NCBI GenBank assembly: GCA_026418615.1
Contig: JAOAAY010000003.1
Location: forward strand, 1 to 64,000
Direction of reading: 5' to 3'
From: Candidatus Sumerlaeaceae bacterium
Lineage (GTDB): Bacteria > Sumerlaeota > Sumerlaeia > Sumerlaeales > Sumerlaeaceae
DNA length: 64,000 bases
Part shown: positions 42,522 to 48,301 of the stretch, in pieces
Layout: every line of letters starts with the position of its first letter
Position numbering within the stretch: position 1 is the first letter of the stretch
Made by a program: the position numbers and the translations under genes
The notes under the pieces: generated by a model
What the model was told of the DNA's origin: nothing
The model's input: the letters and a program-made list of their open reading frames with translations, nothing else
Database searches by the model: none

Positions 42522-45119
<2,598 letters not shown>

Positions 45120-45158: not shown

Positions 45159-45665
45159 GTGACAGGCGACGAGAAAACCTTTTGGGAAGTGTTGTGGGAG
45201 TACGATCCCAATGGTCTCGTGGCCGTGGACAGCCAGGGAATCATCCGCGTCGTCAATCCCGCTTTTTGCCGGATGTTTGGCTTCGAGGGACCCGTTGTGT
45301 CGGGCCGTCCTGTGACAGAGATTCTTGATGACGCCGAAATCTTTGACGAAGTGCGCCGCTCGCGTCAGGCCATCGTCGGGCGCGAGCGCCACTATCCCCG
45401 GCATAACCTTTATGTGAAACAGGTTGTATTTCCCGCCGGAGACGACGGGGTGGTGGCCTGCATCATGGTGAACATGACCGACGAATGGCGGCAGAGGGAG
45501 CGCCTGCGGACGATCACCCGCGAGAGCCTCGCAAAAATGGAGCGCGTCGTGGATCGCCAAATGAAAGTGGCTCAGGAGATAGCCGGCCTGCTTGGCGAGA
45601 CGACTGCGGAAACCAAACTGACCCTCCTCGAACTGACGCGAATGCTCGAGCAGGAGAAACCGTGA
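45159..45665 (+). CDS. stand-alone PAS domain protein similar to the PAS region of [FeFe]-hydrogenase-associated sensor proteins
   Basis: YDPNGLVAVDSQGIIRVVNPAFCRMFGFEG...; C-terminal VDRQMKVAQEIAGLLGETTAETKLTLLELTRML. Confidence 0.85.
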   Translation: MTGDEKTFWEVLWEYDPNGLVAVDSQGIIRVVNPAFCRMFGFEGPVVSGRPVTEILDDAEIFDEVRRSRQAIVGRERHYPRHNLYVKQVVFPAGDDGVVACIMVNMTDEWRQRERLRTITRESLAKMERVVDRQMKVAQEIAGLLGETTAETKLTLLELTRMLEQEKP

Positions 45666-45666
45666 G

Positions 45667-46827
45667 TTGGAAGCGTTCGTTGAGATCGAGACAGTTCAAC
45701 TCAACAAGCACGGCGAGCAGTTGTGTGGGGATCGGGTCCTTGTCCACCGGACTCCGGGCCGGGCCGTTGTCATCCTGTCAGACGGACTCGGCAGCGGTGT
45801 CAAAGCCAACATTCTCGCCACCCTGACGACCACCATCATCCGGCGCATGATATCTGCGGGGGCGGATCTGGGCGATGTGGTGGACACGATTGCCGGGACG
45901 CTGCCTGTGTGTCAGGTGCGGGGTTTGGCCTATGCGACCTTTGCACTAGTCGAAGTGGACACGGTCGCCTGCCGTCTGCGGGCGGTCAACTACGACAATC
46001 CGCCCATTCTTTTTTTTAGACGAGGGCGGCGCATCAGGCCTGAGTCGCGGACAGAGCCCGTGCGCGGGCGTCAGGTCTCGGTCATGGAGTCCGATGTGGA
46101 AATGGGCGACCACATCGTGTTGATGAGCGACGGCGTCACCCACGCCGCCCCGGGCAATCGTACGGACCGCCGCTGGGACAGTGACGCGATTGCCGCGCAT
46201 TTGGAAAAGCAGATCCGCCTGCAACCGGCAACAGCGCGCAGCCTTGTGCGCAACCTGGCCCATCTGACATCGGCGCTTTACCATGGGCGCCCGTCAGACG
46301 ATGCGACCATTGTCGGCCTCCACACCCGTCAGCGCGCATCGCTGATGATTTTCACGGGTCCGCCACAGGACCCGGCGCGGGACTTCGATTGTGCGGAACG
46401 CCTACTCAATTTTCCCGGCCGGAGGGTCATTTGCGGCGGAACCACAGCGACGATTGTCGGCATGCACCTCGCCGAGGTGATTGAGACAGATCTTGCCACC
46501 ATGCGCGAGGGCATTCCCCCGATCGGGCTACTCCGGGAGGTGGATCTCGTAACCGAGGGCATGCTCACGATGCTCAAGGCGTTGGATCTACTGCGGGACT
46601 CTTGTGGCGACCCACAGCGGCTGCCGCGCGACCGAAATGGCGCGGTGTTGCTTGCGCGGGAATTGCTGGCCGCCGATGTCATCGAATTTCTCGTGGGGCT
46701 CAAAACGAGTGATTATTACCAAAATGTGCTTCTGCCGGGCGAGATTTCCGTCAGGAAAAACCTGGTGCGGGAACTTGAGTCGTGTCTGACCTCGTTGGGG
46801 AAGGAGGTGAACATCTCATACTGTTAG
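45667..46827 (+). CDS. SpoIIE-family PP2C serine phosphatase of the hydrogenase-associated type
   Basis: VEIETVQLNKHGEQLCGDRVLVHRTPGRAVVILSDGLGSGVKANILATLTTTIIRRM; DHIVLMSDGVTHA; SDDATIVGL; C-terminal RRVICGGTTATIV...VDLVTEGMLTMLKAL. Confidence 0.9.
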   Translation: MEAFVEIETVQLNKHGEQLCGDRVLVHRTPGRAVVILSDGLGSGVKANILATLTTTIIRRMISAGADLGDVVDTIAGTLPVCQVRGLAYATFALVEVDTVACRLRAVNYDNPPILFFRRGRRIRPESRTEPVRGRQVSVMESDVEMGDHIVLMSDGVTHAAPGNRTDRRWDSDAIAAHLEKQIRLQPATARSLVRNLAHLTSALYHGRPSDDATIVGLHTRQRASLMIFTGPPQDPARDFDCAERLLNFPGRRVICGGTTATIVGMHLAEVIETDLATMREGIPPIGLLREVDLVTEGMLTMLKALDLLRDSCGDPQRLPRDRNGAVLLARELLAADVIEFLVGLKTSDYYQNVLLPGEISVRKNLVRELESCLTSLGKEVNISYC

Positions 46828-46906
46828 GCAGGGGCCAAAGCCTGCTGTTTGTTCCATAATTGACCTGTGCCGGTGAGTTATCATATTATTTTGTGGAAGG
46901 CGGCGC

Positions 46907-48301
46907 GTGGCCAGTAACGGCGGCAAGCGTGCGGGTGCGCGGACAGGATCGGACCAGACCTCCACGCTGACGCCCGCGGTGGCCATGGCGCCGGCGCCGC
47001 CGTTGGAGCGGGGGGCGGTGCTAAAGGCGCGCCACTCCTATCGTCTGGAACGCGTGCTGGGGCGGGGCGGCTATGCGTCGGTGTATCTCGCCGAGACCCT
47101 CGAAACTTCAAGTGAGACGCCGGAGGTTGTGCCGCGTCAGGTCGCGCTTAAAGTCTTCAATTCGCCGGTCGAGGCGGATCCGGCCCAGTTTCTCAAGCGC
47201 GAACTTTCCTCGCTGCTTGCGCTGCGCCACGAACGCATCATTCGCGTTTACGATTGGAATCTTGATCCGCCCAATGCTTTTGTGGTGCTTGAGTATCATC
47301 CGAGTGGAAACCTTTTTCAGGCTGGTGCCAGCGGTCGCCTGCCGGCAGAAGGCGAGGTCTGGCGGCTGCTGGCGCATTTGATGTCGGCTTTGAGCACTGC
47401 GCACCGGGCCAGCATCCTCCATCTCGACATCAAGCCCGACAATGTACTGGTCGATGTAGACGGCAATTTTGTGCTGACGGATTTCGGTATCTCGCAAGGC
47501 AGCGGCGTTTCGCGCCAGCAGATGGCGTTTGGCCTTGGCTCGCCCGGGTATCAGGCACCCGAACAGCGCTTTCGCGACACGAACCTCATCGGCGCTCGGA
47601 CGGATCTTTGGGGCGCAGGAGCGACTGCGTATGCTTACTTTACCGGGCTGCGGCTCAACCGCCACCTTAATCTCTTGGCCGGTCCCGGTGCCTCGTCACC
47701 CTTCGGGCTACCGCCGGTGTCGGAGCACCGCCCGTGCAGCGCGGCGCTCGAGCAGGTCATCATGAGTCTTCTGATGTTTGAGCCGTTGCGCCGGCCGGGG
47801 AGTGCGGCCGAGGTTCTTGCTCAGGTGATGCGTCACACGAGTGCCGGAGACATTCAACCAGCGGTGCTCGGGTCGGGACGAAAGGCTGACCCTGCGGGGG
47901 CAGAAGTGCGGGAACTGGTCTCCCGTATCGTGGATCCACATTTGGCTGCGATCTGCAAGGCGAGCGATGTGATAGGGAAATACATCGTGTTTGAAGATGG
48001 CGAAGTGCTCGCCAGTCAGGGCGACTTGGCTCGGCATGCCTTCGTGTTGCTCCAAGGCGAGGTTGTTGTCGAGCGGGCCGGCGATGTCGAATCGGTGGTT
48101 TGCAGGGAGGGGGTCTTTCTCGGCGAGGTGTCTGCACTGACGGGCCTGCCGCGCACGACAACCCTGCGAGCCCGTGGCCGCGTTTGGGTGTTGGCTTTCA
48201 ATGCAGCCGAATTCGAACAGTTTGTGGTGTCTTATCCGGCCGTGGCTGTGCGACTTCTCAAATCGCTCGCCGTGCGATTGGCCGACCGACCGAACGCCTA
48301 A
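46907..48301 (+). CDS. Ser/Thr protein kinase with C-terminal cyclic-nucleotide-binding domain
   Basis: RVLGRGGYASVYLAE, ILHLDIKPDNVLVDVDGNFVLTDFGIS, GSPGYQAPEQ; C-terminal FEDGEVLASQGDLARHAFVLLQGEVVVERAG...FLGEVSALTGLPRTTTLRARGRVWVLAF. Confidence 0.92.
   Translation: MASNGGKRAGARTGSDQTSTLTPAVAMAPAPPLERGAVLKARHSYRLERVLGRGGYASVYLAETLETSSETPEVVPRQVALKVFNSPVEADPAQFLKRELSSLLALRHERIIRVYDWNLDPPNAFVVLEYHPSGNLFQAGASGRLPAEGEVWRLLAHLMSALSTAHRASILHLDIKPDNVLVDVDGNFVLTDFGISQGSGVSRQQMAFGLGSPGYQAPEQRFRDTNLIGARTDLWGAGATAYAYFTGLRLNRHLNLLAGPGASSPFGLPPVSEHRPCSAALEQVIMSLLMFEPLRRPGSAAEVLAQVMRHTSAGDIQPAVLGSGRKADPAGAEVRELVSRIVDPHLAAICKASDVIGKYIVFEDGEVLASQGDLARHAFVLLQGEVVVERAGDVESVVCREGVFLGEVSALTGLPRTTTLRARGRVWVLAFNAAEFEQFVVSYPAVAVRLLKSLAVRLADRPNA

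Follow-up and report, generated by a model that had tools for sequence, protein, structure and literature searches.

A PAS protein and SpoIIE-type phosphatase gene pair of the stand-alone, hydrogenase-linked form, without an adjacent small iron-sulphur gene, behind gyrB of a Sumerlaeaceae bacterium

The window, i.e. the whole analysed stretch of 64,000 nucleotides from Candidatus Sumerlaeaceae bacterium, possesses two adjacent genes directly behind gyrB (42531..45119, + strand). The first (45159..45665, + strand; GTG start, TGA stop) begins 39 bases after the end of gyrB, is preceded by a GGAGAG resembling a ribosome-binding site and encodes a stand-alone PAS protein of 168 aa. The second (45667..46827, + strand; TTG start, TAG stop) encodes a SpoIIE/PP2C-type serine phosphatase of 386 aa, and a single base separates the stop codon of the PAS gene from the start codon of the phosphatase gene. 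The open reading frames are exactly those of the preliminary description of this DNA, and Pfam confirms both products (PAS_9, 3.3e-8, and SpoIIE, 1.2e-23). GC and GC3 of the pair are like those of the neighbouring genes.

The PAS fold comprises residues ~17-108; the helical tail behind it contains the family motif VDRQMKVAQEIAGLLGETTAETK, nearly invariant in the alignment of orthologues. This tail (45501..45641, + strand) is proposed to serve as a helix that contacts or signals to the phosphatase, since it is the most conserved segment in alignments of separate PAS proteins with those fused in HydS. The catalytic PPM/SpoIIE domain of the phosphatase (45754..46326, + strand; Pfam, alignment and Foldseek) retains the aspartates D22, D39, D155, D211 and D212. 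Foldseek matches the phosphatase to Bacillus subtilis SpoIIE (5mqh) with E=7e-13, and among solved structures its model comes closest to those of SpoIIE, an RsbU domain and RsbX. The remaining ~166 aa (46327..46824, + strand) are modelled as an alpha/beta domain (pLDDT 73.5, from a two-sequence alignment) with the motifs FTGPP, CGGTT and TEG; it corresponds to no Pfam family and has no match at E<=0.001 in a PDB fold search. This is an undescribed domain, common to all members of the hydrogenase-linked family to which the pair belongs.

In that family (HydS-HfsC) the phosphatase of the window matches the profile over its full length with 520 bits and has the invariant residues in addition to the C-terminal domain, and the PAS protein, immediately upstream, carries the defining tail QMKVAQEIAxLLGETxAET. 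SpoIIE and PAS trees, proposed in the preliminary description as the test of its assignment to the hydrogenase-associated type, place the pair inside the family. A set of 386 diverse genomes yielded SpoIIE orthologues in 26, and a second set of 386, from the phylum of G085, in 144; this phylum is called cyanobacterial here from its gene content (hox operons). A single-sequence scan of genome contigs matched only one relative. The gene 5' of SpoIIE is of the HydS type in most loci examined, 535-710 aa long, with ferredoxin clusters, PF02906 and PF04060 followed by PAS and the same tail. The PAS domain had been described as normally fused behind ferredoxin and hydrogenase domains, and such a fusion (ferredoxin, Fe_hyd (PF02906) and PF04060, as in HydS/HfsB), full or partial, is indeed found in 28 of the 41 adjacent pairs. 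HydS-type loci adjoin HydABC or a monomeric [FeFe] hydrogenase of the group B type, together with small TrxFd genes, which encode a thioredoxin-like [2Fe-2S] ferredoxin of ~90 aa equivalent to the C-terminal half of PF01257 (CMGSACH...ELKGSFCLGPC).

Two further HydS variants occur outside the window. The HydS gene of G382 (L093 6584-9595) is split by an ISL3-type transposase gene, with the H-domain part and the FeS and PAS part as separate open reading frames, and is a present-day example of uncoupling of the PAS half. G119 (L106 7731-8840) encodes a 369-aa PAS protein in which PF04060 accompanies two PAS domains and the H-domain is missing; it lies outside the clade of stand-alone pairs treated below and is an independent loss of the hydrogenase domain.

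Sensory hydrogenases of [FeFe] group C3 and the hfsABCD operon are already known. HydDB lists the 'phosphatase-linked' group C3 as putative sensory hydrogenases of undetermined role (PMC5037454). The window pair resembles them in its Ser/Thr phosphatase partner, with orthologous PAS segment and SpoIIE, but the PAS protein of 168 aa lacks the PF02906 H-domain and the N-terminal ferredoxin clusters of HydS proper; it is therefore not a group C3 hydrogenase, of which the [FeFe] catalytic domain is the defining part. Thermoanaerobacterium hfsABCD (HfsB, a PAS hydrogenase; HfsC, a serine phosphatase homologue (PMC11837493); HfsD) likewise combines PAS with an adjacent serine phosphatase, and a comparable order, including TrxFd and an [FeFe] hydrogenase of the group B type, is found in G039, G056, G361 and G308. 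In the window, by contrast, PAS stands alone, without H-domain, adjacent group B-type hydrogenase or adjacent TrxFd. The hfsABCD genes govern fermentation flux: deletion of hfsB yields more ethanol, and deletion of hfsC or hfsD directs flux to lactate, which supports their involvement in the control of fermentation (PMC5707799, PMC11837493).

Seventeen stand-alone members form a single clade in the SpoIIE tree (97/94), nested in the family: the window's genome, G002, G085, G274, G171, G308, G361, nine further genomes of the cyanobacterial phylum and G532. The window's genome and G002 (96/94) are sister to 11 members of the cyanobacterial phylum (97/98), and the PAS tree recovers the same split (98/98). 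Stand-alone PAS proteins are 166-187 aa long and devoid of Fe-S and H domains; G532 possesses SpoIIE and TrxFd, with no PAS detected in the stretches read. The pair belongs to an old, widespread stand-alone version of a hydrogenase-linked system. We infer that the H-domain was lost rather than gained, because the clade is embedded among full-length forms and TrxFd-HydS-SpoIIE is the order in its sister group, the root being only a midpoint.

The usual unit of the stand-alone form is TrxFd-PAS-SpoIIE. Of 13 adjacent stand-alone pairs, 12 have TrxFd immediately 5' of PAS, the window being the exception. In the sister clade G180/G317/G339b a TrxFd gene (75-80 bits) likewise precedes full-length HydS, so that TrxFd-HydS-SpoIIE looks ancestral. 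Seven cyanobacterial genomes (G085, G679, G588, G447, G636, G538, G667) possess hoxE-F-U-Y-H-TrxFd-PAS-SpoIIE on one strand; the cyanobacterial cases belong to four families and are non-independent. Elsewhere the cassette is scattered: in G532 hoxH is followed by TrxFd and in G568 by TrxFd-PAS, and in G490 and G501 a gene for a hydrogenase maturation protease comes after SpoIIE. The cassette stands beside an [FeFe] hydrogenase in G274 (HydABC directly downstream), G308 and G361 (both group B-type, the G361 protein above the TIGR04105 cut-off), while HydABC of G171 is on a different contig. The gene-neighbourhood comparison suggested earlier thus reveals hydrogenase links, to [FeFe] in three genomes and to [NiFe] hox in seven; an [FeFe] hydrogenase as normal partner holds for many loci, but not for those seven. 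A hydrogenase is present in all 17 genomes of the stand-alone clade, a count that covers clade genomes alone.

Open-access literature contained no description of a stand-alone TrxFd-PAS-SpoIIE attached to a [NiFe] hox operon and no paper treating hoxEFUYH and SpoIIE together; literature searches with SpoIIE terms were also empty, and a survey of cyanobacterial hydrogenases does not mention a phosphatase. Within that literature, the Hox link appears undescribed. The Synechocystis hox-operon ORFs sll1222, ssl2420 and sll1225 were considered as such a cassette, and this identity was not established.

Among window ORFs of at least 60 aa there is no match to a hydrogenase, HydB/NuoF, NuoE or TrxFd, in agreement with the earlier statement that the window has neither an Fe-S domain nor a hydrogenase gene, and tblastn found no TrxFd remnant in the window. 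The alternative put forward there, that the hydrogenase lies elsewhere, is correct, because the genome (3.57 Mb in 124 contigs, 92% complete) holds hydrogenases on other contigs. Its one [FeFe] HydA in a whole-assembly search is part of a HydABC-type operon on C35 and exceeds the NCBIfam group A6 cut-off (877 vs 765 bits); it is preceded by NuoE and a protein of 1032 aa, a NuoF-type HydB fused to a GltD-type domain (L002 2367-5465). The same layout of the HydB(NuoF)-GltD fusion occurs in G002 and G003. There are two [NiFe] operons, a complete hoxE-F-U-Y-H on C30 and a 3b-like one on C32, and a HoxH fragment lies at the edge of C57. Ends of C35 (L002 1-19) and C57 (L184 8087-8105) carry the Nextera transposase adapter AGATGTGTATAAGAGACAG, which translates as DVYKRQ within the HoxH fragment.

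The window pair shares with the stand-alone cassettes (cyanobacterial hox operons, G274/G308/G361/G171/G002) the clade, the PAS protein without H-domain, a hydrogenase in the genome and the same two proteins (35-50% identical), but differs in the lack of TrxFd directly upstream and of adjacent hydrogenase genes. A TrxFd profile search of the whole genome yields at best 26-27 bits, as against 134-146 in true members, and these matches are located in a HoxF-type ORF (the higher) and in NuoE of the HydABC operon. The small iron-sulphur gene thus seems lost in this genome. The preliminary description had offered, as one of two readings, that the signalling module was uncoupled from its redox input. 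Since the H-domain-less state characterises a separate clade of 17 genomes, no such uncoupling took place in this organism; relative to sister loci, the window lacks the small TrxFd gene rather than a fused Fe-S domain.

The phosphatase of the window is divergent. Its terminal branch measures 0.96, vs 0.35 for G002, and with five outgroups the changes unique to the window's and to the G002 protein number 80/26, 68/37, 73/37, 69/34 and 49/34 (the last not significant), i.e. about twofold faster evolution in a comparison picked after the tree was seen. PAS, HoxH, HoxF and HydA of this genome show no such acceleration. The phosphatase departs from the other stand-alone members at 30 of 140 otherwise conserved columns, several of them clustered at residues ~159-175 of the catalytic domain (46141..46191, + strand), where AGLG..NFGWGWDN is replaced by AAPG..TDRRWDSD. 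This fits a loss or change of partner or substrate, as a correlation only, and the role of SpoIIE could be changed or decaying. Together with the absence of TrxFd, the long branch and the altered columns would also suit a pair that has become an orphan, either under relaxed constraint or with a newly acquired function, its phosphatase acting on a changed target no longer related to hydrogen. We consider this unlikely, as both reading frames and the catalytic aspartates are intact, the PAS tail is unchanged, the genes are still coupled and the genome retains [FeFe] and [NiFe] hydrogenases.

TrxFd might instead be missing from the assembly only, since this is 92% complete and split into many contigs, and the cassette would then be complete, with its first gene in the unassembled part; scattered cassettes do exist in some cyanobacteria (G490, G501, G532, G568), but the position directly upstream, constant in all 12 other adjacent stand-alone pairs, is filled by gyrB here, and this explanation is decidedly improbable. 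Even smaller is the probability that the genes constitute a general energy-stress module resembling the hydrogenase family by shared domains alone: PAS-coil-PP2C is the layout of Bacillus subtilis RsbP, in which, as in the SpoIIE/RsbU phosphatases, the fold and a PAS-helix regulator acting on PP2C are comparable, and the nearest solved structures are of this kind, but the window has two separate proteins and an extra C-terminal alpha/beta domain, and the specific tail motif, that domain and the clade membership are common with hydrogenase-linked loci. An anti-anti-sigma factor, hypothetical here, could still be the downstream target. That the pair arose by recent local truncation of a once full-length HydS operon, which would have lost its ferredoxin/H-domain part together with the hydrogenase, is suggested by the family-mates G001 and G007 (full-length HydS and SpoIIE beside hydABC) and by the forms in G382 and G119, but is rejected under the model used, because the stand-alone form is one clade in both trees, with 16 other genomes including G002, and constraining the window's genome and G002 with G001/G007 is 123 lnL worse (AU p=2.3e-8).

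The pair is probably the PAS and phosphatase core of a hydrogenase-linked redox signalling module, an H-domain-less variant of the phosphatase-linked sensory hydrogenases (HydS/HfsB-HfsC, HydDB group C3 type), and the Fe-S input gene of this module was lost in this organism. In the complete module, the hydrogenase or its electron carriers would control the redox state of the [2Fe-2S] protein TrxFd, which would pass it to the PAS protein by a putative electron relay; the tail helix of PAS could then switch SpoIIE by contact, and SpoIIE would dephosphorylate a putative regulator, so that fermentative/H2 metabolism tracks the redox state. With the hydrogenases on other contigs and TrxFd gone, the PAS protein of the window's organism may sense via a ligand of its own or borrow a TrxFd-like domain (HoxE/HoxF/HydB). 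Hydrogenase coupling in this genome and in G002 is proposed by analogy, since in neither does the pair have a hydrogenase gene as neighbour.

The natural version without a hydrogenase domain shows that the PAS and phosphatase half can be transferred as a unit and suggests that TrxFd belongs to the input; in some cyanobacteria it makes the last genes of the hox operon a candidate redox-signalling cassette. It is possible, and offered here tentatively, that TrxFd-PAS-SpoIIE is a portable redox module which arose from a sensory [FeFe] system by loss of the H-domain and was re-coupled to catalytic hydrogenases of two unrelated classes, [FeFe] and the bidirectional [NiFe] Hox of cyanobacteria, with the catalytic enzyme replacing the lost sensor domain via TrxFd, and that the window's organism subsequently dropped TrxFd.

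On the same strand, 79 bases downstream of the phosphatase gene, follows a gene for a Ser/Thr protein kinase of 464 aa with a C-terminal cyclic-nucleotide-binding domain (46907-48301). It was considered as an operon partner of the pair, which is unsupported because a terminator-like hairpin 3' of the SpoIIE gene (46827..46846, + strand; a consensus match only, such sites being expected in equal number by chance) and a promoter-like sequence (46860-46889, likewise a consensus match only) intervene and G002 has no comparable gene there. The kinase is probably a transcription unit of its own. Kinase models of the PADLOC defence library also hit its kinase domain, as may happen with kinase domains in general.
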